From positions 1-52,912 of the forward strand of contig JADLDG010000050.1 of the NCBI GenBank assembly GCA_020846775.1: a stretch of 52,912 nucleotides of DNA, written 5' to 3'. Both the position numbers and the translations under genes were made by a program. This DNA is from Nitrospirota bacterium (GTDB lineage Bacteria > Nitrospirota > 9FT-COMBO-42-15 > HDB-SIOI813). Under the pieces are notes generated by a model that made no database searches, had not been told where the DNA came from, and worked only from the letters and a program-made list of their open reading frames with translations. Below are positions 11,708 to 45,446 of the stretch, one piece after another (position 1 is the first letter of the stretch; each line of letters begins with the position of its first letter).

Positions 11708-11822
11708 TAAAAATCCCCCTTAATCCCCCTTTTTCAAAGGGGGAAATCAGGTACCCCCCTTTAGAAAAGGGGGGTAAAGCTTGTCCTGAGCTTGTCGAAG
11801 GAGGGGGATTTGAACGGGGATT
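11708..11822. repeat. CCCCCTTT-family palindromic repeat between topA and trmFO (copy 1)
   Basis: Two hairpins occur in series: CCCCCTTTTT-CAAAGGGGG, then CCCCCCTTTAG-AAAAGGGGGG. A separate short repeat (TGTCCTGAGCTTGTCGAAGG, 11781-11800) and a GGGGGATTTGAACGGGGATTT tail follow. The tail brings the ribosome-binding site of trmFO. The same family recurs near 17000, 36681, 37071, 45166 and 49921. Confidence 0.8.
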
Positions 11823-16999: not shown

Positions 17000-17087
17000 T
17001 AAAAATCCCCCTATATCCCCCTTTGATAAAGGGGGACTCAGAATTCCCCACTTTAGTAAAGGGGGGATGGGGGGGATTTGAAAGGGG
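17000..17087. repeat. CCCCCTTT-family palindromic repeat between argB and the PilZ gene (copy 2)
   Basis: CCCCCTTTGATAAAGGGGG is followed by CCCCACTTTAGTAAAGGGGGG and GGGGGGATTTGAAAGGGGA. The layout matches copy 1: an AAAAATCCCCCT start, two hairpins, then the GGGATTTGAA-GGGGA tail placed just upstream of a start codon, where it acts as the RBS of the PilZ gene. Confidence 0.8.
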
Positions 17088-18989: not shown

Positions 18990-20465
18990 CTAAACCGAAT
19001 AAGCGAAATCGTTGTACGCCATTAAGGTAAGTACGGTTGATATTCGCACATGCTGGTCAAACAATCTGGGTAATATCTTTATTATGAATTTAGTTCTATC
19101 ACGATTTTTATAGCCAAGCAGGGTAAATAATCTTAACGCAAAAAGCATACGGAATTTGAGTCTGATAGGATCCACCTCATTGGAATGCCTCCAGAAATCT
19201 ATCCCCCAGTAATATTGAAGGTTGCGGTAAATACTTTCAAATGAGTAGACCTCCCTGATGACTCTCTTATAACCTTCTTCCAGCTCTTCCGGGCTCATCA
19301 GGGCAGGTTTAAAAACAACATGTCTGGCGTCGTATTTGCTCCAGTCTTTGTGTAATATTCGTCCTTCTTCATCCATTCGCTTGTGGAGCTCTGTCCCGGG
19401 GAATGGAGTGAGGATATTGATAAGGGGCATTAGAAGCTTTGCCTCTTTGATAAAATAGATGAGTTCATCAAATGCTGATAGATCATCAAAGTCGCTACCC
19501 AATATAAAAGAAGCATGAACGAGTATGCCATAGGATTGTATCTTCTGAATCGCCTCAAGGTAGTTGTAGCGCAGGTTCAGCCTCTTGTTCATACGTGTAA
19601 GATTTTGTTCTGATACCGACTCCAGACCAACCAGGATTGAACCGCACCCGCTGTCTTTCATTAATCTCAGGATATCGTCTTCTTTAGATATATTGATTGA
19701 TGCCTGGCATGACCAGTTTAGCCTGTATGGTTTAAGCGCCTTGAATAATTCAACTGCATATTTCTTATTGGCAATGATATTGTCGTCAGCAAAGAAGATT
19801 GATCTTTTCTTTGATTGTGACTCCGGACACTGAATATCCCGAATCTCCTTTATAACTACGTCAATTGGTCTGTTTCTGATAGTCTGGCCGTCAAAGGCAT
19901 AGACTGAACAGAATTCACAGGTGAATGGGCACCCCTTTGTGGTTTGCACGATATCCGCCAGATAACGTGTTTGAGACATCGGAGATCTTACAGCGCCTGA
20001 AGAAGATTTCATACTGGCATATCCTTCTGCCTTATATATCTTCCTGAGTCTACGGTTCCGGACATCTTCCAGGAGTACCGTCCAGATATCCTCAGCCTCC
20101 CCAACCACAACTGAGTCAGAATGTTCCAATGCCTCATCAGGACAAAAGGATGGATGGATCCCGCCAAGCACTGTCTTCACACCCCTTTTCCTGAAATTAT
20201 CAGCTATGTCATACGCCCTCATCGCGAACATAGTCCGAACACTAATCCCTACCAGATCCGCATCCCAGTTAAAGTCAATATCTTCGATATTCTCATCAAA
20301 TACTCGGATCTCATGTCCGCGCGGGGTAAGAGATACAAGTGTTGGTATTGCCAACAGATAGGAAAAATATTTCCTCGAAAACAGAAAAGAAGATACAAAC
20401 TTCAAGTCGTAAAAACTTGGTTCATTTTCCAATCCGTTCCTCGGAATAATAAGTGCAATCTTCAT
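18990..20465 (-). CDS. B12-binding-type radical SAM protein with DUF4070-like C-terminus (rSAM-1)
   Basis: An N-terminal B12-binding-like Rossmann domain (about residues 1-145) contains the LGGIHPSFCPDEAL loop and lacks the DxHxxG cobalt-ligating motif, as is usual in this class. The radical SAM core has the [4Fe-4S] cysteines C179, C183 and C186 (GCPFTCEFC). The C-terminal region (ILTPFPGTELHKRMDEEGRI onward) is DUF4070-like. Relatives methylate or rearrange unactivated carbons of lipids, for example hopanoid methylases. The substrate here is unknown. The end of its core resembles rSAM-6 (43158-44417), sharing the EGRIL...W...VVF.P pattern, so it may belong to the lipid cluster further right. 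Confidence 0.85.
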   Translation of the reverse strand: MKIALIIPRNGLENEPSFYDLKFVSSFLFSRKYFSYLLAIPTLVSLTPRGHEIRVFDENIEDIDFNWDADLVGISVRTMFAMRAYDIADNFRKRGVKTVLGGIHPSFCPDEALEHSDSVVVGEAEDIWTVLLEDVRNRRLRKIYKAEGYASMKSSSGAVRSPMSQTRYLADIVQTTKGCPFTCEFCSVYAFDGQTIRNRPIDVVIKEIRDIQCPESQSKKRSIFFADDNIIANKKYAVELFKALKPYRLNWSCQASINISKEDDILRLMKDSGCGSILVGLESVSEQNLTRMNKRLNLRYNYLEAIQKIQSYGILVHASFILGSDFDDLSAFDELIYFIKEAKLLMPLINILTPFPGTELHKRMDEEGRILHKDWSKYDARHVVFKPALMSPEELEEGYKRVIREVYSFESIYRNLQYYWGIDFWRHSNEVDPIRLKFRMLFALRLFTLLGYKNRDRTKFIIKILPRLFDQHVRISTVLTLMAYNDFAYSV

Positions 20466-21376: not shown

Positions 21377-22783
21377 TTGAAGATCCTTATTGTATCAACA
21401 AACCGTGAAAAGTCCCCCTTCCCTGTAGCGCCTGTAGGCGCACTCTGCGTCTGCTCTGCAGCAGAACGGGCAGGCCATCAAGTTGACTTTCTCGACATGA
21501 TGTTTGTCAAAGATCCTGTCAGCTCGCTTAAAGATCTAATAAAGTCCTGTGATTACAAAGCCATTGGTTTCAGCATCCGCAACCTGGACGATTGCATTTC
21601 CTCAACCCGGAAGAGTTATTTTACGATTGCAAGAGAGATGGTGGAGTGTGCACTGAAACAGACGGATGCACCTGTAATACTTGGCGGTAGCGGTTTCTCT
21701 ATCATGCCTGACGGCTGGTTAAAAAGACTAAAGGTTCACTACGGAGTTGTGGGTGATGGAGAGATTGCCTTTGTCAGTCTTTTAAATGCCATTGAATCTA
21801 ATGAATCAACATCGGGGATTGCCGGCGTCCTGACCAACAATGACAATCATAATGACGCAATGAGGAAGATGATGCCCTCTTCCGTTTCTGACCTGGACGG
21901 TATATATTCCGCCAGCCACGACAAATGCTCCTACATGCAATATCTCCGAAGGGGTGGATTTGTCAGCGTACAGACTAAACGGGGCTGTGCATTTAAATGT
22001 ATTTATTGTGTATATCCAGTTCTTGAAGGGACAGCGTACCGGCTTCGGTCGCCTGAAAATATAGCTAACGAAATTGCGGCCATGTCGCGTGTAAAAACTG
22101 CAACAAACTTCTACTTTACAGACAGTGTATTCAACACGCCGAGGGAACATGCCCTTTCTATTTGTAAAGAACTGGCGAAACGGAAGCTATCAATAAAATG
22201 GATGGCTTACTGCAATCCGGTCGGCTTTGACTCTGAATTGGCACGTGCAATGACAGAGGCCGGATGCGTGGGTATCGAGTTTGGTCTTGATGTCGCAACC
22301 GGTAAGATGCTGAAGAAAATGGGCAAACCCTTTACCCAGCCGGACATCAGAAATAGCCTTAAGTCAGCCTCGGATGCCGGTCTCCCCTTTGCCCTGCACC
22401 TCCTCTTCGGCGGCCCGGGGGAGTGTATTGATGATATCCGGGAGACGCAAAGTTTTATAGATTCCTGTGCAGCGCCAAATGCTGTGTTCGCCCTGATGGG
22501 TATCAGAATTTATGAAAATACCCCGATAGAAAAAACTGCGTTGGCTGAAGGGGTCATAACTGAACAAACCGACCTCTTCGATCCTGCCTTCTATATATCC
22601 CGGGAGCTTGGGAAGAACCCGATGACGGTGCTTGATGAGATTGCAAGAGAGCGCCACACATGGTCAACCCCGACGGACTGGTCCAAAATAAGCCTGCGGA
22701 TTATACAAAAATTCATTAACCGTGCAGGAGATCATCCGCAGTGGCGGAACATTGAAAACTATGGCAAATTTCTCAGACGGTAA
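21377..22783 (+). CDS. B12-binding-type radical SAM protein (rSAM-2)
   Basis: A B12-binding-like domain covers about residues 1-150 (LGGSGFSIMPD, then VVGDGE), again without DxHxxG. The radical SAM cysteines are C204, C208 and C211 (KRGCAFKCIYC). This protein and rSAM-5 (41757-43130) are clear paralogues; they share SIRN(L/I)D(D/N)C, QTKRGC, YP.LEG..YR.R, DSVFN and WMAY. I recall this type being annotated as 'lipid biosynthesis B12-binding/radical SAM protein' in ladderane-related clusters (unverified). The start is TTG with no visible RBS. The 3' end overlaps the convergent glycosyltransferase gene by 25 bases. Confidence 0.85.
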   Translation: MKILIVSTNREKSPFPVAPVGALCVCSAAERAGHQVDFLDMMFVKDPVSSLKDLIKSCDYKAIGFSIRNLDDCISSTRKSYFTIAREMVECALKQTDAPVILGGSGFSIMPDGWLKRLKVHYGVVGDGEIAFVSLLNAIESNESTSGIAGVLTNNDNHNDAMRKMMPSSVSDLDGIYSASHDKCSYMQYLRRGGFVSVQTKRGCAFKCIYCVYPVLEGTAYRLRSPENIANEIAAMSRVKTATNFYFTDSVFNTPREHALSICKELAKRKLSIKWMAYCNPVGFDSELARAMTEAGCVGIEFGLDVATGKMLKKMGKPFTQPDIRNSLKSASDAGLPFALHLLFGGPGECIDDIRETQSFIDSCAAPNAVFALMGIRIYENTPIEKTALAEGVITEQTDLFDPAFYISRELGKNPMTVLDEIARERHTWSTPTDWSKISLRIIQKFINRAGDHPQWRNIENYGKFLRR

Positions 22784-24720: not shown

Positions 24721-26145
24721 ATGAGAATATTACTGGTCAAACCTAAAGCCGCATTAAATACGATTAACAGACTGAGGTCATTCATATTTCTTGAGCCGTT
24801 AGAACTTGGATACCTCGCGGCGGCAGTGCCTGAAGGACACACTACACGCGTTCTGGATCTGCGGCTGACTGAAAAACCGGATCAAGTCTTCAGGAAAGAG
24901 TTGACGGATTTCAAGCCGGATATCTTAGGGATATCCGGCTATACCCATGAGGTGTCAAAGGTATTAGACCTTGCAAAGGTTGTGCGCAATGTATTAAACA
25001 AGGCGCTGGTCGTTGTGGGGGGACATCATGCAACGGTATTACCCGATGATTATAACAAAGATTATATTGATGCCATCGTCCGAGGAGAGGGGTGCGCACC
25101 ATTTCGTACCATAGTTGAACATGCCGCTGCAGGCAAAGATTTTCATGGCATTCAGAACGTGATGGTGCCGGGAGAGAAATTAGAGTATGCAGGGGCTTCA
25201 AAGATGCCGGCATTTCCTGACCCTTCAGACATACCCCTCCCTCGCCGGGATCTCTGGGACATGGACAAATACAGGTCTATATGGGTAAAGGAAGGCCACA
25301 CTAACTGGGAAACGATATTTCCTCCTGTTGCACTTGTCCGAACGTCCTATGGATGTGTCATGACCTGCACCTTCTGTGTGGTCCCAACCCTGTACGGAAA
25401 ACGCCACATGACAAGGCCTCCTGAAAAGGTGGCTGAAGAGATAGAAAATATCAACGCAGACCATATTTATTTCTGTGATGATGAGACCTTCATGAATACA
25501 ACTCACATCCGTAAGGTGGCAGAGGCTATTGAGGCGCGCGGCATAAAAAAGCGTTATTTCGCCTGGGCCCGTTCAACGACTGTTAATAATAAACCGGAAC
25601 TGTTCCGGCTGTGGCGGCGAATCGGCCTGGACGGGGTATTCCTCGGTTTCGAGGCTACGTCGGATCAGGAGCTCAAAGACCTGTCAAAGCGCGCCACTGT
25701 GTCTGATAATGAACGAGCGCATAAGTTGCTGAGGGAAATGGGTATTGCTGTCCATGCCGGATTCATGGTGAATCCTGCATTTTCAGAACAGGATTTTGAT
25801 CGCCTTCAAAACTATGTCAGGGGTATGCCGCCGGCCCAGGTTACCTTTACCGTGTTTACTCCTTCACCTGGAAGCCCTGCATGGTTTGAAGAAAAAGACA
25901 AGTTCGTGGGAAATCCCTTCTCATTACACGATTGCATGCATCCGTTAAGCCAGACAACGATGCCCCTGCGCCAGTTCTACAAACACTTTTCCAGTCTGGT
26001 TTCAGAAGGGGGAAATAAAAATCCACTTCGTTCGACTGGAAATAGAATACCTCTTCTGGACATAGTCCGCGTACTTTATGCCTCATATGCATATTCGAGA
26101 TGCTTACGTAAGGCATATCGCGATTATCCGAGGGAACTCTGGTAG
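24721..26145 (+). CDS. B12-binding-type radical SAM protein (rSAM-3)
   Basis: The B12-binding-like domain (residues 1-150) has the VVGGHHATVLPDD loop typical of cobalamin-dependent radical SAM methylases. The cysteines are C212, C216 and C219 (GCVMTCTFC). The later part contains CDDETFMN and LGFEATSDQEL, typical strands of the partial TIM barrel. The layout resembles hopanoid C-3 methylase (HpnR)-like proteins, but the resemblance is not strong enough to name it. A GAGGG RBS precedes the ATG. The gene lies 31 bases before an outer-membrane barrel gene and could be co-transcribed with it. Confidence 0.85.
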   Translation: MRILLVKPKAALNTINRLRSFIFLEPLELGYLAAAVPEGHTTRVLDLRLTEKPDQVFRKELTDFKPDILGISGYTHEVSKVLDLAKVVRNVLNKALVVVGGHHATVLPDDYNKDYIDAIVRGEGCAPFRTIVEHAAAGKDFHGIQNVMVPGEKLEYAGASKMPAFPDPSDIPLPRRDLWDMDKYRSIWVKEGHTNWETIFPPVALVRTSYGCVMTCTFCVVPTLYGKRHMTRPPEKVAEEIENINADHIYFCDDETFMNTTHIRKVAEAIEARGIKKRYFAWARSTTVNNKPELFRLWRRIGLDGVFLGFEATSDQELKDLSKRATVSDNERAHKLLREMGIAVHAGFMVNPAFSEQDFDRLQNYVRGMPPAQVTFTVFTPSPGSPAWFEEKDKFVGNPFSLHDCMHPLSQTTMPLRQFYKHFSSLVSEGGNKNPLRSTGNRIPLLDIVRVLYASYAYSRCLRKAYRDYPRELW

Positions 26146-26857: not shown

Positions 26858-28327
26858 TCACTCAACCTTGCCGGCATGTCTTTTTTCTCCCTTATAAGAA
26901 TTCTTTATCTTCAGAAAGTCTTTCAAGTTCCACATGAAACGCATCCAGCTTTCCGGGGAACGCCATAGCATCGTCACATAATCTAAGAGGATGTGAGTAC
27001 GTTCAAAGTGCCTCCTGTAAAACTCCCTGTATCTTTCTTCGAGCCGGTCTTCTGTAAAACCTGTCGGGATAAAAACAAAATTGGCACAATTCATCATCTC
27101 CCAGTTTTCTTCAAAACTGCCATAGCTTCGGATGTCTTTATAAAGGGGTGAGCCTGGGAAAGGGGTGAATTTAGCGAGGTTCATATCGTTTAGCGGAAGA
27201 CTGAGGGCATAATGGATGCTCTTATTGATGCTCTCTTCGGTCTCACCCGGGAGTCCCATCATAAAGAGCCCTTTTGTGCGGATGCCGGCCTTTCTGATCA
27301 GCGCCACCTTCTCCCGAATCATGTCGAGATTAGAGTTTGATCTGTGCTGCTTCAGCAGTTCGGGGTCGCCTGTTTCGATGCCAAGACTGATCATCCAGCA
27401 ACCGGCCTTTTTCATCAATTGCAGAAGGTCAAGATCAACATGCTCGGCCCTCGCTGCGCAATTAAATGTGACTCCCAGCCCTCCCCTGGTCATGAGATTG
27501 CAGAATTCTTCAACCCTCTTGCGGTGGAATGTAAACAGGTCATCGTAAAAGTTTATGTGCCTCACACCATAATCCTTGTTAAGATATTTGACCAGGCTGA
27601 ACATATAATCTGCAGAGTTATATCTGAAAGACTGTTGAAATACAGTCCTGTCGCAGTAGCTGCACTTATAAGGACAGCCGCGGCTGGACACTATCGTAGT
27701 GTTGGGGGCCTTCGGATAATTAAAGATCGGCAGCTTATACGCCCCGGGAAAGCCTTTTAACTTTCCATACGCCGGGAACGGCAGGTTGTCCATCTCCATC
27801 AGTTGTTTCCTCTTCCCATAACCCGTAAATACGACCTCCGGGCCTTTCCTGTACATAAGTGCGGGTATTTCGTCCAGTGAACTGTACTCCTCTTCCATGA
27901 GGGACAACAGGGGCATCTCACCTTCACCGACCACTCCGTAGTCTATGACCGGATAGTCCTTCATGAGGGTCTCACGGAGGGCAGTAATATGAACCCCGCC
28001 GAAGATGATGGTGATGCGAGGGTTCAGATTCTTTATCTTCTCAGCAATCCGTACCGCGTCCAGGAAGCTGGAAGTAGTTGCTGTAAACCCGACGAATTCA
28101 GGGGGCTCCCGCCTGATGCTGTCCATGATCATGTCATCCTGTGCCGGGAATGCGTAGCAGTCGTGAATGGACGCCTCGTGGCCATGCTTTTCAACCCATG
28201 CAGCAAGACTGCAAAGTCCTATGGGGGGCATGATGTTGGCAATCCTGGCCATGTCCGACTCACCAGGCCTCCAGTTTACGCCCAGAGGATGGATGAAGAG
28301 GATTTTCTTTCTTTCTTTATTTCCCAT
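26858..28327 (-). CDS. B12-binding-type radical SAM protein (rSAM-4), last gene of the biosynthetic train
   Basis: The B12-binding-like domain covers residues about 10-140 (FGGVHITALRETL, GVVGEGE). The cysteines are C218, C222 and C225 (SRGCPYKCSYC). GLPGETEESI and FTPFPGSPLYKD follow, and an arginine-rich C-terminal extension (residues 420-489) closes the protein. The gene lies three bases after the AMP-ligase gene, so it belongs to the long operon. A role in modifying the acyl chain is likely but not shown. Confidence 0.85.
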   Translation of the reverse strand: MGNKERKKILFIHPLGVNWRPGESDMARIANIMPPIGLCSLAAWVEKHGHEASIHDCYAFPAQDDMIMDSIRREPPEFVGFTATTSSFLDAVRIAEKIKNLNPRITIIFGGVHITALRETLMKDYPVIDYGVVGEGEMPLLSLMEEEYSSLDEIPALMYRKGPEVVFTGYGKRKQLMEMDNLPFPAYGKLKGFPGAYKLPIFNYPKAPNTTIVSSRGCPYKCSYCDRTVFQQSFRYNSADYMFSLVKYLNKDYGVRHINFYDDLFTFHRKRVEEFCNLMTRGGLGVTFNCAARAEHVDLDLLQLMKKAGCWMISLGIETGDPELLKQHRSNSNLDMIREKVALIRKAGIRTKGLFMMGLPGETEESINKSIHYALSLPLNDMNLAKFTPFPGSPLYKDIRSYGSFEENWEMMNCANFVFIPTGFTEDRLEERYREFYRRHFERTHILLDYVTMLWRSPESWMRFMWNLKDFLKIKNSYKGEKRHAGKVE

Positions 28328-35243: not shown

Positions 35244-35957
35244 TCATTCTTCGTTCTTATTGTCAAACAGCATTTGTTCGTCTACTGGTCCGGCATCAAT
35301 CTTTAATAGATCTACCCTGAGTTCATAATGCCATCTGTAGTTAACAAGGGTTATCATGGAAGGTAGTGGTCTTTCCCATCCATCGTATAATCTGTAGCCG
35401 GAATAACTGACGCTCCTTACCAGCCTCCCGTCAACTGCCTCCAATGAGGCAATCAGATCACCGCCGGCTGAGAATAGATACTCGAAGACGCTGTCTTCCC
35501 CTTTTCTCACGACAAGGCTGGGGGTGTTTTTCTCATTCCTGGATAGATAGGCATCTTCGGATTCCCGTATATCGTACAGGTGCCTTATATCTCCCATGAC
35601 CCCGTTTAATAACGGGTTTGAAGGCATGGCCCCCGGTTTGACCGCGATCTTCCTTTTTCCGTCACGTTCGATGAGGTCAAATATCCTTCCGCCCATCTCC
35701 CCAAAGGCAATGGCACGGAAACCTTTCTTTCTCTTCACAAGCAAGTAACCGGGAAAATCATTCTCCTTATCCCTGACCTTCATGATGATATGCTGAGACA
35801 GTCTGAACTCTCCCGGGTAAGGGTCTATACGTTCCAGCATCCGTTCCATTTGCCCTTCGGCATGATCGGCCGGGACAGGCACTGAGTATTTCATTCCCGC
35901 GCAGCCGGCAACTGCATAAGAAAAAAAGCAGAGTATAAAGAATAATCTCTTTCTCAT
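35244..35957 (-). CDS. Outer-membrane lipoprotein, DUF3261-like
   Basis: A lipoprotein signal peptide ends in VAGC (C19), so the mature protein is lipidated. The 237-residue chain is mostly beta-strands (FRLSQHIIMKVR, GFRAIAFGEMGGRIFDL, SMITLVNYRWHYELRVDLL), the pattern of the DUF3261 proteins that accompany LolA and MMPL genes in aryl-polyene clusters. Its ATG overlaps the stop of lolA by four bases (ATGA). It is probably a receptor or chaperone for the exported lipid. Confidence 0.75.
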   Translation of the reverse strand: MRKRLFFILCFFSYAVAGCAGMKYSVPVPADHAEGQMERMLERIDPYPGEFRLSQHIIMKVRDKENDFPGYLLVKRKKGFRAIAFGEMGGRIFDLIERDGKRKIAVKPGAMPSNPLLNGVMGDIRHLYDIRESEDAYLSRNEKNTPSLVVRKGEDSVFEYLFSAGGDLIASLEAVDGRLVRSVSYSGYRLYDGWERPLPSMITLVNYRWHYELRVDLLKIDAGPVDEQMLFDNKNEE

Positions 35958-36733
35958 TTACCTTTATTTGAAGTGGAGACAGGAAGGTTCGGCGTAAGCG
36001 GATTTTTCAGATCGAAGAGACGCTGGTCAAGGGAGCTATTCTCTTCCTGATCTGAAAATCTGATTTCTATGGAGTCTCCCCTGGGTTCACGGATAATTAT
36101 CTTTGTCACGAAGTTTGTTTTCCGGTCTATGGAGAGATCGAGGGACTTGATGACCTTTGCCATACCGGCGGAAACCGGCCTCATAACAAGGAGGTAGTCC
36201 TTTCCAAGGGCCATGGAGATTTTGTAGTCCTTCTGAACCTTTTTGAAATCCCCGCGTATGATGGAAATAATCTGTCTCAGCGATTCCCGGAAGATATCCT
36301 CCATTCCAAGATTCATCCTGACAAATTTCCCTTTATCGAGGTTAAATTTGGCTACGTTGCCGTTGTTGAATATCAGGATTGAGGCATAAGGTTCAGTAAG
36401 TTCCCACCGCAGTTTATCAGGCATCTCAAAGTAAAGAACCCCTTTGGAGCTCAGGACGTCGAGGAACATTAACATGTGACGTTCCTGAATAAATTCTGCT
36501 TTCAGGTTTTTCACAGATTGTATATTATCTGTCATCTGCGTTAAGATGACTTCCATTTCGGATGCGGCTAATTCCCTGTATGGTTCAATAGACCTATCCG
36601 CGCCGTGGAGAAAGGAGGCGCTGCTTATGAAAATTATGATGACACCAAGAATCAAAATACGACAACTTCTGTTTCTTATACTTCCCCTCTTTGAAAAAGA
36701 GGGGTCAGGGGAGATTTTTATAAATTGTCCCAT
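35954..36733 (-). CDS. LolA-like outer-membrane lipoprotein carrier with a repeat-derived N-terminus
   Basis: After a hydrophobic signal segment (residues 26-44) the LolA fold is recognisable: NIQSVKNLKAEFIQERHM, SSKGVLYFEMPDKLRWELTEP, YASILIFNNGNVAKFN and SLDLSIDRKTNFVTKIIIREP. LolA-like proteins in such clusters are thought to carry a lipid across the periplasm. The start is odd. The ATG at 36733 lies inside the last codons of the DUF559 gene, and residues 7-18 (ISPDPSFSKRGS) are a translated palindromic repeat. No better start exists, so the gene seems to have lost its native 5' end. Confidence 0.82.
   Translation of the reverse strand: MGQFIKISPDPSFSKRGSIRNRSCRILILGVIIIFISSASFLHGADRSIEPYRELAASEMEVILTQMTDNIQSVKNLKAEFIQERHMLMFLDVLSSKGVLYFEMPDKLRWELTEPYASILIFNNGNVAKFNLDKGKFVRMNLGMEDIFRESLRQIISIIRGDFKKVQKDYKISMALGKDYLLVMRPVSAGMAKVIKSLDLSIDRKTNFVTKIIIREPRGDSIEIRFSDQEENSSLDQRLFDLKNPLTPNLPVSTSNKGK
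36681..36720. repeat. CCCCCTTT-family repeat at the 3' side of the DUF559 gene (copy 3)
   Basis: CCCCTCTTTGAAAAAGAGGGG forms a hairpin and is followed by TCAGGGGAGATTTTTA. It matches the half-unit of copies 1 and 2. It encodes the first residues of the LolA-like protein and touches the DUF559 stop codon. Confidence 0.75.
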
Positions 36734-37065
36734 ATTTTTTCAAGAACTCCTTCAATATCCTCAAAAACATCTCTATCAGAAAACCTGAGAACTTTGACAC
36801 CTAAACTTTCCATATACTTATCTCTTATAATATCTCTTATAGTGCCTTCTTCAGTGTAATGCTGGCCTCCATCAAGCTCTATAATAAGTCTGGCCTTTGG
36901 ACAATAGAAATCTACGATATAATTGCCTATTATCTTTTGCCTGTAAAACTGACATTCTTTAAGTTGCCTTCCTCTTACTTTATCCCAAAGAAATTTCTCT
37001 GCATCAGTCATATTCTTTCTATGTTCCCTTGAGTATTGTTTCAGAGCCCTGTTGTATTTCAGCAT
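36718..37065 (-). CDS. DUF559 (Vsr-like) endonuclease-fold protein
   Basis: A complete 115-residue DUF559 protein. It has the RKNMTDAEKFLWDKVRGRQL opening, FYRQKIIGNYIVDFYCP with the catalytic-type Asp, and LIIELDGGQHY with the E-x-D and His of the Vsr/PD-(D/E)xK-like fold, ending DRDVFEDIEGVLEKI. No methylase accompanies it, so it is not a standard restriction gene. The in-frame TTG at 37104 lies in the upstream repeat; the ATG at 37065 with AAAGGGGGG, supplied by that repeat, is the better start. It interrupts an otherwise biosynthetic operon in the same direction, flanked by repeat copies on both sides. Confidence 0.85.
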   Translation of the reverse strand: MLKYNRALKQYSREHRKNMTDAEKFLWDKVRGRQLKECQFYRQKIIGNYIVDFYCPKARLIIELDGGQHYTEEGTIRDIIRDKYMESLGVKVLRFSDRDVFEDIEGVLEKIWDNL

Positions 37066-37070
37066 CGCAT

Positions 37071-37094
37071 ACCCCCCTTTACTAAAGGGGGGTA
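37071..37094. repeat. CCCCCTTT-family repeat at the 5' side of the DUF559 gene (copy 4)
   Basis: ACCCCCCTTT-ACTA-AAGGGGGGT is a near-perfect hairpin of about 23 bases. On the minus strand its AAAGGGGGG lies about six bases before the DUF559 ATG. With copy 3 it brackets the gene. Confidence 0.75.
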
Positions 37095-37122
37095 TTTGCA
37101 ACAATAACCTGAAGATCCCTAT

Positions 37123-38187
37123 TTATTTCGCAAGGGTGAATAGGCTGCAGGTTCCGTTTCTGTCAAAGCCTATGCAGCTTATTTCTGAAGTATTTGCATT
37201 ATTATCTGTATTATCAGTATTGTTCTCATCTGACTTGTCAGGCGAGGGATAAACAACCCCCTCTTTCAATGAAAGGGCTGCTATAGCAATATCAAAGCCA
37301 TTTCCTGCCGGCATGCCTCCATAGAGTGGTGAGTATGCCTGAACCCTCCTGTTGTCTGCCAACGGTTTATAAAACCGTCCTGTATCCCTATCACCATTTG
37401 CGGCAAGAAACAGTGTTTCGTGATCGCAGGAAAGTTCCCTTCGTCCGGTTTCACATCTGCTCAGGCTGCAGTATGCCCTGTCACCGGATTCTTTCCCCAG
37501 CAGGAAGGCTGCAAAACCCTCACCAGGCATATATGTACATTCATCAAAAGACAAAGGCCTGATAGCAGAAGACCCGCGGCTGCCCGACATCAGCGTTGCG
37601 TAGCCCCTTACATCACAATACTCATCTCCTACCCCTGCCAGCACATAGTCTGCGGTCCCGTCTCTCAGCCAGTTAATAGCAGTTGACATCACTGAAAACG
37701 TTGTCTGTTCAAAGCAGGTAACCGTCAGACATGGTCCCTGGAGCTTGAGTAATATAGAGACATGGGAGGCAAGGGAGTTGTGCACCGAATTGGCGAAAAG
37801 GGTGGGAGAGGCGCATTTGTCACCGAAATCTATCAGGCTGTCGAGGAAGCTGAATGTGGTTTGCAGTGGACCGTAGCCGCTGCCGAAAATTATCCCAACC
37901 CGTGTCCTGTCATCGAGGATTATGCCGCTGTCCTCTATCGCAAGATACGATGATAATAGGGCCATCTGGATGAAACGATCCATCCGGCGCATGGCCGGTC
38001 GCGAGACAAAGCGGTCAAGACCGCGTACCGCTGCCGTATATACTTTTAAAGATGCCTCTCCATCCGCTGTTTCAATCGTGTGTTCCTCAATCGCCGGACT
38101 GACCTTTCCTTCAAGGCCAGACTTGACTGTTTCTATTCCGCACCCGAGGGCCGAAACAGTGCCGATCCCCAAAACCCGGGTGCTCAT
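37123..38187 (-). CDS. Ketosynthase-like chain-length factor (catalytic Cys replaced by Glu)
   Basis: The thiolase fold of beta-ketoacyl synthases is recognisable (GIGTVSALG, VGIIFGSGYGP, YMPGEGFAAFLLG). At the nucleophile position, where the neighbouring KS has ANACSSGT, this protein has TCFEQTTF; aligned without gaps the Cys becomes Glu. The His motifs (AHGT, GHTLGAAG) are missing too. It therefore cannot condense by itself and should pair with the active KS encoded next, as chain-length factors do in type II polyketide and aryl-polyene systems. The start overlaps the stop of that KS by four bases. The C-terminal NTDNTDNNANT stretch is low-complexity. Confidence 0.82.
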   Translation of the reverse strand: MSTRVLGIGTVSALGCGIETVKSGLEGKVSPAIEEHTIETADGEASLKVYTAAVRGLDRFVSRPAMRRMDRFIQMALLSSYLAIEDSGIILDDRTRVGIIFGSGYGPLQTTFSFLDSLIDFGDKCASPTLFANSVHNSLASHVSILLKLQGPCLTVTCFEQTTFSVMSTAINWLRDGTADYVLAGVGDEYCDVRGYATLMSGSRGSSAIRPLSFDECTYMPGEGFAAFLLGKESGDRAYCSLSRCETGRRELSCDHETLFLAANGDRDTGRFYKPLADNRRVQAYSPLYGGMPAGNGFDIAIAALSLKEGVVYPSPDKSDENNTDNTDNNANTSEISCIGFDRNGTCSLFTLAK

Positions 38188-39680: not shown

Positions 39681-40607
39681 TTACGCCATTTCCTTTTTGT
39701 TTGTACCCCAGAAATCAAAGAAATTAAACCACATATATGGGTTCTTTTCAAGGTATTCTTCCAGACATGATACATACCTTTGCAAGAGGGTTTTTACTGC
39801 CTCTTCCCTCGGCATCTGTGTCCAGTCCCGGTCGCTGCTGATCTGTTCAGCCCCAATAGTGAAGGTCATGCTGCCGGTCCTTACAGTTAACGAAACCACC
39901 AGGTCAGCGCCTGTGGCTGCAACAAGATAATAGGGGGTTACAGGAAATAAAGCCTTTTCCCCCAGAAATTCCATCTCCATTGTCTTTGCCCCCCATGCCC
40001 GGTCTCCCATTATGGCTACCACCTCCCCGGCCCTGAGGGCATTAGTCGCCTCAACCATTCCACCCAGGAAGCCGGTCGGCGGGATAAAGTGGAACTTGTC
40101 GCGCTGCCCGGCAAGGTCGAAAAAATGCCGCCCTTCATCGTTCGAAATATTAAACAACAGGTTCACTCTGGTCCCTATGTGATCCATCGTCGCCATAGCC
40201 GTCTGCCAGTTGCCGGCATGGGTAGTCAGCAGGACCATCCCCTTCCTCTTCTGTGCAAGATTGTATAAGTTCTCCTGTCCGGGAAAATCAACCTGAAAGC
40301 AGTCCTTGTCAAGGATACCGATAGCCGCCTGGTCTATTAGAACCTTGCCGAACTGATAAAGATAGTATGTCGCGGCCAAAAACCGCCTTATCCTCCCCTG
40401 ATCAGGAAACCTGTGTCTCAGATAGTAATATACAGACTTTCTCGCACTGGTCCTTATCAGGAGGTAATACGGGAGAATGAATGCGAGCAGGAGGTACGCT
40501 GGTATCGGACCTGTCACCCTTATCAGGATGTGGAATATCCCGTAACCAATCCTGCTGCCATAGGTCTGTTGATTATGAGCCTTGCCTGAATTACCCCCTT
40601 TGACCAT
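39681..40607 (-). CDS. LpxL/HtrB-type lysophospholipid acyltransferase
   Basis: The 308-residue protein has an N-terminal hydrophobic segment (residues about 27-48), the acyltransferase box TTHAGNWQTAM with the catalytic His, and the later GDRAWGAKTMEMEFLG region typical of lipid A late acyltransferase relatives. In aryl-polyene clusters such an enzyme, often fused to a GT2 domain, is thought to attach the polyene to a lipid anchor. Here it is separate, overlapping the GT2 gene by 17 bases. Confidence 0.87.
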   Translation of the reverse strand: MVKGGNSGKAHNQQTYGSRIGYGIFHILIRVTGPIPAYLLLAFILPYYLLIRTSARKSVYYYLRHRFPDQGRIRRFLAATYYLYQFGKVLIDQAAIGILDKDCFQVDFPGQENLYNLAQKRKGMVLLTTHAGNWQTAMATMDHIGTRVNLLFNISNDEGRHFFDLAGQRDKFHFIPPTGFLGGMVEATNALRAGEVVAIMGDRAWGAKTMEMEFLGEKALFPVTPYYLVAATGADLVVSLTVRTGSMTFTIGAEQISSDRDWTQMPREEAVKTLLQRYVSCLEEYLEKNPYMWFNFFDFWGTNKKEMA

Positions 40608-41760
40608 CTGTACCTTTGGAAACTCTGAGGTTCTGGTAGAAAATGCCGGTTAGAAAGGCAATAGCTCCAACTAATACGGCCAGAACCGGTCCTATTATCA
40701 ATGAACCTATCAGGTATTCCAATAATCTCTGGGGCGCTTCATAGCCGAGTGTCTGCATATTGAATTCCGTCAGGTAACTGCCGTGCCTCATGTAATAACC
40801 AACTGCTACGGCCAGGCCTGGGACAAAAGGCGGCATGCAGATATTGCTGACACTCAGCGCCACCAGTCTGTTCAACCTGAGCCGGGTGGCTACAAAAAAG
40901 ATCATTATGGAATGACACGCAATCAGCGGGAGTGCACCAAGGAAGACCCCGAGCATTGACGATAAGGCCATGTCCTTAGGAGAAAGGCTTTCCCGGAGAA
41001 GAAGCTTGAATGACCTGATCGGATGGAGGATAGAAAGTTTCTCTTCACTGTCTGTATTAAATATCACCTTATGCGGCCATGGAAGAAAGTTCCTAAGTAC
41101 CAGCCGCGTGTAGGTCCATGATATCCTCGCATTGTCCCGTAGAGGATCGAAATGGGACGCCTTTATTGTTTCATCAGAGTAGTGAACGGAAATGTCCTTA
41201 TGAACGATGGACAGTCCAGCCCAAATACCCCTTACAAGAATCTCAACCTCAAAGTTGTACTTCCGGCCCTGGCATTTAACCTGCCGAAGCGCTGCTACAG
41301 GATAAGCCCTGAATCCGCTCTGACTGTCCGGGACTCTCCATCCTGTCGTAATCCAGACCCACATGTTGGAAAATTTCCTGCCGAAACGGCTTGAGAATGG
41401 AACCATCTCTCCAAATTGTCTGGTCCCGACGATAATCGTCCACGGATTTTCCCTTATCAGATCGGGAAACAGGGCCGCATCCCCCGGATCGTGCTGACCA
41501 TCTGCGTCAATTGTAATTATGTGGGTATATCCATTGGTTTCTGCCCATTCTGCAGCAGAGAGGATGGCGCTCCCTTTGCCCCTGTTATCTGTAAAGTCGA
41601 GCAGCGTGACTGACAGTCCTGCCAGAGTCTCCGGACCGCCATCTGTGCTTCCGTCATTTACCACGAGGACCTTAAGGCCTGTACTCACGGCCTTCTCAGT
41701 CACAGTCCGCAGGGTCTTCAGGTTATTGAATGTTGGTATGACGATCAGGATGTTTATCAT
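40591..41760 (-). CDS. GT2 glycosyltransferase fused to a DUF2062 membrane domain
   Basis: Residues 1-235 form a GT-A glycosyltransferase family 2 domain, with VVNDGSTDGG and the metal-binding ITIDADGQHD, resembling dolichol/undecaprenyl-phosphate mannosyltransferase-like enzymes. Residues about 255-389 are a DUF2062 domain with three or four transmembrane helices (SSMLGVFLGALPLIACHS). It probably acts at the inner membrane and transfers a sugar to the lipid product. Its start overlaps rSAM-5 by four bases. Confidence 0.87.
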   Translation of the reverse strand: MINILIVIPTFNNLKTLRTVTEKAVSTGLKVLVVNDGSTDGGPETLAGLSVTLLDFTDNRGKGSAILSAAEWAETNGYTHIITIDADGQHDPGDAALFPDLIRENPWTIIVGTRQFGEMVPFSSRFGRKFSNMWVWITTGWRVPDSQSGFRAYPVAALRQVKCQGRKYNFEVEILVRGIWAGLSIVHKDISVHYSDETIKASHFDPLRDNARISWTYTRLVLRNFLPWPHKVIFNTDSEEKLSILHPIRSFKLLLRESLSPKDMALSSMLGVFLGALPLIACHSIMIFFVATRLRLNRLVALSVSNICMPPFVPGLAVAVGYYMRHGSYLTEFNMQTLGYEAPQRLLEYLIGSLIIGPVLAVLVGAIAFLTGIFYQNLRVSKGTDGQRG

Positions 41761-43130
41761 TGTACACGTTTACGTCTTCTTTCCAGGTTGATACCTTTTC
41801 CCAGAAGCATGTCCCAGATAGGTCCCTTATAACCAAGATTATGAAATGCCCTTACCTTGTCTGCATCTTTTTCAAATGGATAGACCCTGTCTATTCTGCT
41901 GCCGAAAGACCTTCTGATGGCCTGGTCGAGAAAGGAGGCGGCGACATCCCTGGAGAAGTAAAAAAAAGGCTCGATAAGGTCATCTGCTGAAGTGACCATT
42001 CCTTCCATGACCGCCCGCCTGTGAATCGGTGTACCAGGTATTACCCGGACCCCGGTTGAGGCGAAGACGACGCAGTCGTTAAGACGGTCAATGTTTGAAA
42101 GTCCCTCTTCAACTGTCTGTTCAGTCTCCTCTGGTCCGCCGAATATGATAAAATGGGCACAGCTTATACCTGCAGAGCTGAACAGCCTGTTGCTCTCTTC
42201 TACATCCGACCATGAAAAATGTTTACCCATCCCCTTCAGTGTTATGTCCGTAGAACAATCAGTTCCCCATTCTACAGCCTTCAGACCTGAACGTTTCATC
42301 AGTTCGATATCCTGCAGGCGAAACCGGTCAGGTTTAAAATAGGCCATCCAGGGGATTTGTATCCCGCGGCGGACTATTTCTTCTATTATCTCAAGATAGT
42401 GTCCTGACGGATCATTGAAAACAGAATCTGCAATGAAATAATAATCTGCATGGTACTTATCAATGAGCAATTGAATCTCGTCAGCCACAACTGAGGCCGG
42501 ACGGTACCTGTAAACTCTGCCCTCCAGCGCCGGGTAAGAACAGTAAGCGCATCTTAGCGGACAACCCCGCTTGGTCTGGATGTTCATCATGCCACCATGC
42601 CTGATGTAATACTCCGCGTATCCAGGGTTTCTTCCTGCAGCTGCAGTTTCCCCCCCTGTCAAAGGGGTCTCGTTTCTTAATATCCTTGTGACCGGTCTCC
42701 TTCCGGCAGCAAGTTCCTCGGCAAGGTGCGAGAAAACCACCTCACCCTCCCCCGCTATCCCGTAATCTCCCCCCAATTTTTCCAGAAGGATCTCGGGAAA
42801 CAATGAGTACCCTGCACCCCCCAGGACAATAGGACTTTCAGTACAGAGCCGCAATACCCTGATAATATCCTGATAGAACGGTGCATAGGAGACTGTATTA
42901 TTGTAACTGCAGTTATCTATGTTGCGAATAGAGATGCCAATGACATCAGGCTCCTGTGCCCTTACAAGATCCGTCAGACCCTGTAGTGATTCACCCTCAG
43001 CAAGGTAATCCCACTCAATTACTTCATGCCCGCGGGAAAGTAAATCATGGGCTATCATGGCCATTCCAAGGGGGTAAACAGGATAAGGGTCCCGCGTTAT
43101 ATTGGATGAAAGAAGAAGTATCTTGGCCAT
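41757..43130 (-). CDS. B12-binding-type radical SAM protein (rSAM-5)
   Basis: The B12-binding-like domain (residues 1-145) has LGGAGYSLFPE and AGEGE. The cysteines are C190, C194 and C197 (KRGCPLRCAYC). It is the closest relative of rSAM-2 in this window, sharing SIRNIDNC, QTKRGC, LEG.VYR.R, DSVFND and WMAY motifs. Two such paralogues at two sites of one neighbourhood suggest successive steps or alternative substrates. It overlaps the GT2-DUF2062 gene by four bases and follows rSAM-6 after 27 bases. Confidence 0.87.
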   Translation of the reverse strand: MAKILLLSSNITRDPYPVYPLGMAMIAHDLLSRGHEVIEWDYLAEGESLQGLTDLVRAQEPDVIGISIRNIDNCSYNNTVSYAPFYQDIIRVLRLCTESPIVLGGAGYSLFPEILLEKLGGDYGIAGEGEVVFSHLAEELAAGRRPVTRILRNETPLTGGETAAAGRNPGYAEYYIRHGGMMNIQTKRGCPLRCAYCSYPALEGRVYRYRPASVVADEIQLLIDKYHADYYFIADSVFNDPSGHYLEIIEEIVRRGIQIPWMAYFKPDRFRLQDIELMKRSGLKAVEWGTDCSTDITLKGMGKHFSWSDVEESNRLFSSAGISCAHFIIFGGPEETEQTVEEGLSNIDRLNDCVVFASTGVRVIPGTPIHRRAVMEGMVTSADDLIEPFFYFSRDVAASFLDQAIRRSFGSRIDRVYPFEKDADKVRAFHNLGYKGPIWDMLLGKGINLERRRKRVQ

Positions 43131-43157
43131 TGGTAAATGGTTATACAGGAAAAGGGT

Positions 43158-44417
43158 TCAACACTGCCTGGTGTGTCGAGCATAATCTTTAGGTTTGGGC
43201 GGTGATTGATAAGTGCCATCTGCTATCTCCCTTTGTATTACCTTCATAAACAGGTCACCCATCTTCAATTCCTGCGGTCTTTCTTTATAGAAGGTATCCC
43301 ATGCATATTCATATATATCCTGCAATTCAGTGCATGTCATCTTTTTGGGCTGGAAGACGACCCTGTCGCATGTGTAATCCGCCCAGTTATTGCTGAGGAT
43401 TCTCCCCTCTTTTTCAAGCTGCGCCCTGATGGGGGTATGCATGAATGGTGTCATGATGGTGAACTCGGCAAGATCCAGCCCGATCTCCAGCAGGAAGTCT
43501 ACCAGCCTCTTTATATAATCAATGTCCTGGTCATCTGTGCCGAGGATAATAGTCCCTTCAACACCAATACCATGATCTTTGTACTTTTTGATCCGGTTTC
43601 GAATGACATCGGATGTATCGAAGACCGCCTGGTAAACATACCAGGCGCCGGCCTGATACGCCAGATCGAGAAGCTTGTCGTCATCCTCGATTGGATGGCT
43701 TACCCACTTCTTTTTCAACGGGATAAGCGCCTTAAAGAGCTCTTCCTCCCATTGGTAATTCTGGGCCAGAGAATTGTCAACTAAAAAGAGTCTGTTATTG
43801 TCAATTGAATTAATCTCTTCAACTACCTTTGAGATGGGGCGGGGTCTGAATAACTGCCCTCCAAGGAACGGCGTGCAGCAGGGGAAGCACTTGAAACGGC
43901 AGCCCCTGGATGCGTGTACCAGATCCAGCATCTTAATCCCCCGATAAGTATAGCGTTCACGGTTCAGGATGCCGCGCCTTGCCGGTCCTACCAATTCAAC
44001 CGGAGGAAGGTCTCCTCTCTCATCGTAAACCGCAGCAAGTCTGTTATTCATGAAGTCTTCAAGCACCTTTTCTATACGACCCTCGGACTCCCCCATGAAG
44101 ACGCTGTCTACATGCTGCTGAAACTCATCGCTGTGGAGGGATGCGGATATTCCTCCTGCTATCACGGGTATCCCGCGTCTGCGATAGTGGTCAGCGATCT
44201 CAAATCCCCGGGGAACCTGTGCAGCAAGCATGACTGAGAGAGCTACAATGTCCGGACTGTCTTCCAGATCCAGCGGGTCTACATTTTCATCTATAAATTC
44301 AACATCCGCATAAGGAGGAAGTGATGCTGCAAAGACCACCGGACCGTGGGGAGGGAGGTGAAATTGCGTCTGCCTTTCGATTTTTCTCCACTTCGGGTAA
44401 ATAATTTTTATTCTCAT
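43158..44417 (-). CDS. B12-binding-type radical SAM protein (rSAM-6)
   Basis: A shorter family member (419 residues from the ATG at 44417; a TTG at 44441 would add eight residues and would overlap the upstream KS-like gene). The cysteines are C173, C177 and C180 in RGCRFKCFPCC. The residue before the third Cys is Pro instead of the usual aromatic, and a fourth Cys follows directly. The B12-like domain carries AGGISASLHSDEF. The end of its core (EGRILSNNWADY ... VVFQPKKM) resembles rSAM-1. The function is unknown. Confidence 0.85.
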   Translation of the reverse strand: MRIKIIYPKWRKIERQTQFHLPPHGPVVFAASLPPYADVEFIDENVDPLDLEDSPDIVALSVMLAAQVPRGFEIADHYRRRGIPVIAGGISASLHSDEFQQHVDSVFMGESEGRIEKVLEDFMNNRLAAVYDERGDLPPVELVGPARRGILNRERYTYRGIKMLDLVHASRGCRFKCFPCCTPFLGGQLFRPRPISKVVEEINSIDNNRLFLVDNSLAQNYQWEEELFKALIPLKKKWVSHPIEDDDKLLDLAYQAGAWYVYQAVFDTSDVIRNRIKKYKDHGIGVEGTIILGTDDQDIDYIKRLVDFLLEIGLDLAEFTIMTPFMHTPIRAQLEKEGRILSNNWADYTCDRVVFQPKKMTCTELQDIYEYAWDTFYKERPQELKMGDLFMKVIQREIADGTYQSPPKPKDYARHTRQC

Positions 44418-44424
44418 AGCTCTA

Positions 44425-45126
44425 TTATTCTTTGGGATCAAATAGGTCTGTAAGTGAGGTCACATCCCTGCCGCTGCTTTGCACCATCCTGCCCTTATCA
44501 TACATCAGTTTAGTTCGAAAAGATAACACGTTAGCAGGCTTAGCGTCAAGGATTACGAATACCGCTCCTGCCAGCGGCCGGTCTCCTGTAGCCATCATAT
44601 TTACTGGCGGACTGTCTATCCAGCCTGCCAGCATCCTGCTGGTCTTCCCGGAGGCAATCATTGATGCTGCGTTTTCAAGGGCGCTAATTCCAGGCCCGGA
44701 GCTCTCACCAACGCAATATGTCGGGCCTGTTAGATTAAACAGTACAGCGCATTCACCCAGGACAATGACAGGAAGTGTATAGGAAAAGAGGTTGGGGCTT
44801 GAAAGAACCCCTCCCTGTTCCAGTGTAGTTTGATAATATGCCAGGTCTGTTTCCATTACTTCACAGAGGCTTGACACTACCATCCCAATCGGTTCAGATG
44901 CCTCGCCTTCGCTAATGCCGGCATCTTTCAGCGTCATGGCAACGGCCAGGCACCCAAACTTCGTATAAGCATCGAAACGGCCGAACCTCGGATGGGGACG
45001 TGGAAACAACCCTTTTTCGGAAGGTAGTACTGGAGTACCTGTACCCAACACAGGGCGTTTCCCATCCGCCATAACGCCGTGTCCATTAGGAGTTATCCAC
45101 GCACCACCAGTTATCCAGATATCCAT
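44425..45126 (-). CDS. Ketosynthase-like N-terminal half protein without catalytic Cys
   Basis: At 233 residues it covers only the first half of a thiolase fold, similar to the short 'beta-ketoacyl synthase, N-terminal' proteins of aryl-polyene clusters. The segment NLTGPTYCVGESSGPGISALENA aligns with the nucleophile region of the neighbouring KS, with Ser at the Cys position. No second half follows. The frame is intact and its stop lies only seven bases before the rSAM-6 start, so it looks like a maintained non-catalytic subunit and not a pseudogene; a chain-length or scaffold role is possible. Confidence 0.7.
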   Translation of the reverse strand: MDIWITGGAWITPNGHGVMADGKRPVLGTGTPVLPSEKGLFPRPHPRFGRFDAYTKFGCLAVAMTLKDAGISEGEASEPIGMVVSSLCEVMETDLAYYQTTLEQGGVLSSPNLFSYTLPVIVLGECAVLFNLTGPTYCVGESSGPGISALENAASMIASGKTSRMLAGWIDSPPVNMMATGDRPLAGAVFVILDAKPANVLSFRTKLMYDKGRMVQSSGRDVTSLTDLFDPKE

Positions 45127-45446
45127 CTATTTATCAGGTCCCTTCACTCGAAAATAGCCTTTCAAATCACCCCCTGACCCCCCTTTTCTAAAGTGGGGTA
45201 ACTAATTTCCCCCTTTGAAAAAGGGGGAGTAAGGGGGATTATTTTCATGCCAATTTGTAAGCACTGGCTCATGATGGCTCACTCGAAAATAGCGCCTCCC
45301 TATCATTGCCGCCTTTCATTCTGAACTCGTTTCAGAATCTCCTGACCCTGCACCGTTTGAGATCCTGAAACAATCCTACACCAAGTTCAGGACAGGGTTC
45401 AGAATGACAGACTACGCCAGGATGTCAGACCGGGTGGCATGAGCGT
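45127..45446. repeat. 320-base gene-free stretch made of two kinds of palindromic repeat (includes copy 5)
   Basis: This is the largest break in the long operon. CCCCCTTT-family repeat copy 5 occupies about 45161-45246 (CCCCCCTTTTCTAAAGTGGGG, then CCCCCTTTGAAAAAGGGGG). It is bracketed by a 14-base direct repeat CACTCGAAAATAGC at 45145-45158 and 45280-45293. The second element (45317-45406) is listed separately. No promoter or short gene is convincing, though the break may separate transcripts. Confidence 0.7.
45317..45406. repeat. 90-base palindromic element with 10-base terminal inverted repeats
   Basis: The ends CATTCTGAAC (45317-45326) and GTTCAGAATG (45397-45406) are perfect reverse complements. 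Inside, GTTTCAGAATCTC (45329-45341) pairs with GAGATCCTGAAAC (45358-45370) with one mismatch. The nested layout matches REP/BIME-like elements, and a related half-element lies in dprA (8085-8119). Confidence 0.75.

Follow-up and report, generated by a model that had tools for sequence, protein, structure and literature searches.

The BoxC, PIT or triplex repeats of E. coli have been known since the 1990s, and to our knowledge neither a partner gene nor an agreed function has been assigned to them. DUF559 is a very widespread protein family that carries the label "unknown function". The Rickettsia palindromic elements (RPEs), described from Rickettsia, are palindromic repeats that can be accommodated in frame by protein-coding genes, and they are not known to carry a nuclease gene. 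For purine-motif triplexes, the third strand follows the rule that G is placed over G-C and A or T over A-T.

The repeats named TMECO, BoxC or PIT occur in 23 copies in E. coli K-12, and a 2015 survey counted the G/C-rich triplex motif in over 260 bacterial genomes but found no mobility gene near the repeats (PMC4666352). The TMECO triplex forms in vitro, whereas in vivo no stable triplex was observed for the E. coli copy (PMC4666352). A DUF559 protein of Caulobacter, VsrA, was found to be required for the SOS response in a methylase mutant, and a role in mismatch repair was proposed for it (PMC12907096). This SOS requirement would fit a protein that acts as a nuclease in cells. No earlier report of a link between DUF559 and triplex repeats was encountered in the titles, abstracts and text passages covered, a scope that left aside subscription papers and preprints. 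In E. coli itself, the DUF559 gene is ycjD. Its place in phylogroups A, B1 and C is between sapF and fabI, and the ycjD-fabI interval contains one TMECO type A motif.

The DUF559 gene of the window and its flanking repeats

The window, meaning the whole analysed stretch of 52,912 nucleotides from a Nitrospirota bacterium, contains a polyketide-type cluster in which a DUF559 gene is sited with a chain-length-factor gene on one side and lolA on the other (Table 1). A preliminary description made from the letters alone had placed this gene between the two, and the matches to PF04480 and PF03548 together with the coordinates bear it out. The protein matched PF04480 over its full length with 120.8 bits, the curated Pfam cut-off being 20.6, which places it in the DUF559/YcjD family, and it matched the sequence of PDB 3HRL at E 5e-18. 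An AF2 model of the protein reached a pLDDT of 91, and Foldseek searches with this model returned 3HRL, a solved DUF559 protein (E 4e-7), the homing endonuclease I-Bth0305I (E 6e-4), and weaker matches to Vsr (1VSR) and TnsA. Residues R16, E23, W27, Q43, D52, E63, D65, H69 and D78 were invariant in 40 sequences. From the modeled fold, the protein is predicted to be a PD-(D/E)XK nuclease of the Vsr-like kind. Among the Pfam domain matches of the window cassette there was no transposase domain. Among the Foldseek matches of the window protein were also mitoribosomal proteins of Toxoplasma and Tetrahymena, in which one domain resembles DUF559 in structure.

The preliminary description had further claimed copies of one repeat on both sides of the gene; a hairpin is indeed present on each side, but the two are not identical, with CCCCCCTTT upstream and CCCCTCTTT downstream and a third strand in the downstream copy only. 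In this downstream copy the third strand faces the gene and completes a perfect mirror triplex (9/9 triads), so that the pyrimidine arm, the purine arm and the mirror-matched purine third strand of the BoxC/PIT/TM repeats are all present. The upstream copy carries a AAAGGGGGG arm 6 nt before the ATG, where a Shine-Dalgarno would be expected, in agreement with the proposal that it supplies the ribosome-binding site of the DUF559 gene. A look-alike at 37257-37277 was rejected as a repeat, being conserved chain-length-factor coding sequence.

The lolA frame was said to open within the last DUF559 codons, and it does so with an ATG at 36733 from which it reads through the downstream repeat (MGQFIKISPDPSFSKRGS...). 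About 18 residues of LolA had been counted as insertion-derived; close to that number, about 17 codons, holds if this ATG is used, but a TTG just before the hydrophobic stretch is a candidate start further downstream and may be used instead. In G001, a genome of a related genus with no DUF559 match, the order of the genes is unchanged and the cassette is absent, leaving about 50 nt between the chain-length factor and lolA in which neither hairpin nor gene is found. At the protein level, the lolA ortholog at this cassette-free site is 72% identical to that of the window. An identical LolA N-terminus in relatives lacking DUF559 had been named as evidence against the insertion; the N-terminus in G001 proved different (MKRLRHIMILTAIF...).

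Table 1. Positions in the window of the DUF559 cassette, its neighbours and gene-less doublets
Feature	Position	Strand	Remark
DUF559 (YcjD-family) gene, predicted Vsr-like PD-(D/E)XK nuclease, 115 aa	36718..37065	-	PF04480 E 3e-35
Ketosynthase/chain-length-factor gene, upstream of cassette	37123..38187	-	3' end is the other border of the empty site
lolA homologue (PF03548), directly 3' of cassette	35954..36733	-	
Cassette-derived N-terminal extension of LolA frame, ~17 codons	36680..36733	-	Missing from the cassette-free ortholog
Downstream terminal motif: hairpin CCCCTCTTT-gaa-AAAGAGGGG, spacer TCA, third strand GGGGAGATT	36684..36716	+	
Downstream hairpin (CCCCTCTTTGAAAAAGAGGGG)	36684..36704		
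Third G-rich segment of downstream motif	36708..36716		
Upstream terminal hairpin, 13-bp perfect arms	37069..37095	-	Third strand lost in this copy
Core of upstream hairpin (CCCCCCTTTACTAAAGGGGGG)	37072..37092		
Gene-less REPIN-like doublet: two inverted triplex motifs ~9 nt apart	17003..17082	.	Third strands outward
Doublet: one complete triplex motif and one hairpin	11710..11776	.	Complete motif 11724-11744, - strand
Doublet: one complete triplex motif and one hairpin	45177..45245	.	Complete motif 45208-45228, + strand

The repeats are dispersed beyond the cassette. The window contains 15 copies of CCCCCTTT against 2.8 expected, and 15 was reached in 0 of 100 shuffles. Since most loops are 3 nt long, the exact pattern CCCCTTTNNNNAAAGGGG matched at just 2 places, and a variable gap was used in its stead: the hairpin CCCCCTTTN2-6AAAGGGGG was found 99 times in the genome of the window, and its reversed control was matched once. 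Across 424 kb of this genome, the motif was complete in 35 cases, and purine-arm hairpins numbered 94. All nine close pairs of complete motifs in these 424 kb were inverted with their third strands outward, the spacer being 6-9 nt in seven pairs and 64-69 nt in two.

Other features of the window were noted in passing. Radical-SAM/cobalamin-type proteins (CxxxCxxC) are encoded around the ketosynthase cluster at 18990-20465, 21377-22783, 24721-26145, 26858-28327 and 41757-44441, and are accompanied by an MMPL exporter and acyltransferases, giving an unusual polyene-like biosynthetic region. At 40594-40607, a repeat remnant forms the start of an acyltransferase ORF (MVKGGNSG...), a second possible instance of N-terminal residues derived from a repeat.

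Facing motifs and the mirror rule across phyla

Near-complete DUF559 domains with their flanks were collected at 181 loci, strong matches being favoured, from a sample of 396 genomes of the window's phylum and from 80 loci of a named GTDB collection. With an explicit three-part motif finder, and with control ORFs taken from the same loci, a motif facing the gene was found upstream at 115 of 175 DUF559 loci (66%) against 13 of 571 controls (2%), and downstream at 112 of 175 (64%) against 8 of 571 (1%). Enrichment of DUF559 genes beside the repeats, the check that the preliminary description had named for itself, was massive: 93 of the 175 loci (53%) had facing motifs at both sides, as compared with 0/571 control ORFs. 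Upstream third strands faced the gene in 115 cases and pointed outward in 21. Furthermore, a terminal-inverted-repeat score of at least 14 was reached by 129/175 DUF559 loci and 9/566 control ORFs, and hairpins, counted per 50-bp bin, occurred in 21-44% of loci within 100 bp of the DUF559 domain and in about 1% elsewhere. In the same phylum, no motif was found within 160 bp of RAYT-like Y1 genes (0/20), IS200-type Y1 genes (0/27) or HepT genes (0/30). Chance, or a general enrichment of intergenic hairpins, is rejected on the same-locus ORFs and on the RAYT, IS200 and HepT controls, and plain terminators are rejected on motifs that stand at both sides with third strands toward the gene. The bracketing of DUF559 by the repeats is confirmed as real and as far more general than the window alone.

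About a third of DUF559 loci had no recognisable motif, and these were found more often in Bacillota, Cyanobacteriota and Actinomycetota. As a separate observation, a DUF559 remnant that is truncated and lacks annotation separates gtrS from a gene for a sugar ABC transporter on the Pseudomonas aeruginosa plasmid pPALO11 (CP075839.1; L331).

The motif has three parts, in the order pyrimidine arm, purine arm and third strand. Its sequence varies widely, as in AAAGGGGG with GGGGGATT, GGGAGAGGG with GGGTGAGGG, AAGGGGAGG with GGTGGGGTT and AAGAGGGGG with GGGGGAGTT; across these divergent motifs the purine arm is mirrored by the third strand, an A of the arm being matched by A or T, in accordance with the purine-motif triplex rule. 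Covariation was measured on 247 hairpins in 152 loci that had been picked blind to the third strand, by which circularity was avoided. A perfect mirror match was seen for 66% of the hairpins with their own third strand and for 8% when strands were swapped between loci (permutation z 19-21). A direct-repeat or plain G-run relation was rejected, the mirror fitting far better; the direct-repeat rule gave 19% perfect matches. This covariation is read as the trace of selection that would maintain a triplex-forming capacity, and a triplex may form in cells. In a few variants (L334, L345, L189, L181), the spacer between arm and third strand was itself a small hairpin (e.g., TGGCCGAAGGCC), and the third strand was still present.

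Co-inheritance, cassette-free sites and in-frame insertions

When only pairs from different phyla were compared, DUF559 protein similarity correlated with motif similarity (r 0.51; 42 named loci with a motif, 11 named phyla), while permutations gave a mean of 0.00 and a maximum of 0.24. The idea that endonuclease and repeat move together, put forward from the window alone, agrees with this travel of gene and motif in company between phyla and with the empty window site in G001. Of 27 genomes in which the CCCTCTCCC hairpin occurs 20 times or more, 25 carry DUF559, compared with 140/396 overall (odds ratio 28, p 2e-10, for one motif variant and uncorrected for relatedness). One genome said to be complete (G228) has 118 CCCTCTCCC hairpins and no DUF559 match below E 1e-15, and its repeats are possibly an orphaned population.

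The number of DUF559 copies is usually one to four per genome, so that most copies may be immobile or passively carried. The genome G002 has 13 matches, nine of them below E 1e-15, and five similar copies among them share 87-94% DNA identity with dN/dS of 0.09-0.35; these copies are under purifying selection. Outer inverted repeats of ISL3-like type (GGTTCTTTCTCATTTTGAGTGGGT / GGCTCTTCCGGCTTTTGTGTGG) enclose G002 copies (L007, L011, L013) as well as L005, L041, L042 and L131, and a second transposase may therefore carry those cassettes.

Cassette-free relatives were found for three sites, the window site among them. Shinella has a site syntenic with one in Sinorhizobium and lacks the whole block of about 760 nt, in which the DUF559 gene of Sinorhizobium is flanked by two complete doublets in direct repeat. 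In a third case, genus g38, the site is filled in G186 and G388 and contiguous in G342 and G244. When the empty sites of G001 and Shinella were read base by base, no repeat was present in these diverged relatives, and because the cassette-free relatives have diverged, neither a target-site duplication, as expected of a classical IS or MITE, nor an exact junction was definable at the G001, Shinella and g38 sites. E. coli offered no simple empty site, strains without ycjD having the eef operon there, and cassette-free relatives were sought for Synechocystis and Azospirillum plasmids and none was found.

The cassette lay inside a longer open frame at 29/181 loci, an upper bound since a few merely overlap a neighbour. 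Domain searches identified host-protein domains on both sides of DUF559 in PriA (L158, L161), ValS (L174), HsdS (L028, L066, L071, L101) and HsdR (L173), and further hosts are indicated as IspE (L178), HsdM (L155, L094, L100), an M14 peptidase and a cyanophycin-synthetase-like ligase. Both PriA insertions stand immediately before the Walker A motif; the hosts include Gastranaerophilales for PriA and Anaerolineales for ValS. In these frames the repeats are translated as linkers rich in Pro, Gly and Arg, e.g., LPLPMGEGRGEG. Pfam found just DUF559-type domains between the host domains and no splicing domain around the in-frame DUF559, by which identity as an intein is ruled out.

A probable mobile cassette, its alternatives and the known systems

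The findings suggest that DUF559 is the missing partner of the BoxC/PIT repeats and that both spread jointly as a mobile element. The probable reading is a widespread mobile cassette in which a DUF559 nuclease is carried between inverted triplex-capable motifs, and of which the gene-less doublets are non-autonomous derivatives. By analogy, the doublets (BoxC/PIT/TM in E. coli, CCCCCTTT here) would relate to the cassette as REPINs do to RAYTs. We infer that DUF559 recognises the motif and that movement is driven by DUF559 itself. In the proposed mechanism, a motif that turns single-stranded, for instance on the lagging-strand template, would fold; the DUF559 nuclease would recognise the folded end and nick beside it; host repair would then copy or move the cassette or doublet into a new site with no recognisable target repeat. 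The ends are often open in frame, by which the cassette can sit in coding genes as a linker-flanked domain.

In the main rival, selection for repair or defence keeps DUF559 as a passenger gene, which is captured and shuffled by independent repeats that act as recombination hot spots and are spread by another enzyme. We consider it unlikely, though the ISL3-like outer repeats around copies in G002 and at L005, L041, L042 and L131 keep it alive. It would also suit the unusual variability of TM loci among E. coli strains (PMC4666352), the many in-frame insertions that hit restriction-modification genes, and the mismatch-repair role proposed for Caulobacter VsrA. Against it, none of the 77 loci with further small genes of mobile or defence type in this phylum was so flanked within 160 bp. 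The orientation of the upstream third strands toward the gene and the tracking of DUF559 similarity by motif type across phyla likewise count against it, and no single transposase family was noticed beside the motifs.

A quite improbable alternative sees no transposon ends in the repeats but control elements of DUF559, which would serve the gene as self-regulated terminator, ribosome-binding site or promoter. The upstream motif does occupy the ribosome-binding site of the window gene and hairpins are common 3' of genes, but control elements would hardly be dispersed in about a hundred gene-less copies, stand as an inverted pair around DUF559 or be translated in frame within host genes, and PIT elements were reported to possess neither promoter nor terminator activity (PMC4666352). 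True homing, in which DUF559 would cut gene-less motif copies and the cassette be copied into them, is the least probable of all: the fold is close to I-Bth0305I, the dispersed repeats are the same as the cassette ends, and complete direct-repeat doublets enclose some of the cassettes (Sinorhizobium), but the homing into a target-like repeat envisaged in the preliminary description finds no motif at the cassette-free sites of the diverged relatives G001 and Shinella, where the cassette seems to bring its own ends instead of homing into an existing copy, and for the priA, valS, ispE and hsd insertions no repeat was recognised that would have been there beforehand.

Returning to the mobile cassette, we hold the chances evenly balanced that it represents a new class of mobile element. 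In it, a Vsr-like DUF559 nuclease would move DNA by recognising the triplex folds that single strands adopt at the ends of the element, which would account for how BoxC/PIT arose and could settle in frame in essential genes as an unspliced extra domain. No known element class has an enzyme or ends homologous to those of the cassette; on a conservative view, it may fall within the REP-plus-enzyme kind. If true, a repeat-plus-nuclease element unrelated to RAYTs is added, together with a nuclease domain that inserts in frame in priA, valS and other genes. The link gives BoxC/PIT and DUF559 each a testable role, including ycjD and the 23 TMECO copies of E. coli K-12, and the covariation supplies evolutionary evidence that triplex capacity is kept by selection, a point left open by in vivo footprinting.

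Among known systems, the BoxC/PIT/TMECO repeats share with the cassette ends the three-part purine-motif architecture and the inverted pairing of type A and type B, and the E. coli copies belong to the same family as the cassette motifs; they were described without a partner gene, whereas the cassette motifs have DUF559. What is added here is the partner gene, the covariation test and sequence-divergent members of the motif in many phyla. The REP/REPIN-RAYT system resembles the cassette in its short, structured, high-copy repeats, in inverted doublets as the dispersed unit, and in a single dedicated gene that is bracketed by repeats and co-evolves with them (PMC3116915). A REP-associated character had been suggested for the window, and the comparison is apt, as the inverted doublets attest, but the cassette does not belong to REP/RAYT, its enzyme being a predicted Vsr-like PD-(D/E)XK nuclease and no HUH/Y1 protein like RAYT; within 160 bp, such flanks were found at 0/47 Y1 genes of the window's phylum. 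Moreover, the DUF559 ends consist of a hairpin with a mirror third strand in place of a GTAG-tagged hairpin, and the cassette is sometimes multi-copy and found in frame within genes. Vsr and I-Bth0305I share the predicted fold and the acidic/His active-site residues with DUF559, but the DUF559 gene of the window is unlinked to a dcm-type methylase there, and DUF559 has repeats of its own as a frame rather than a group I intron or intein. Finally, RPEs are likewise repeats placed in frame in coding genes, while the DUF559 cassette brings a nuclease gene of its own.
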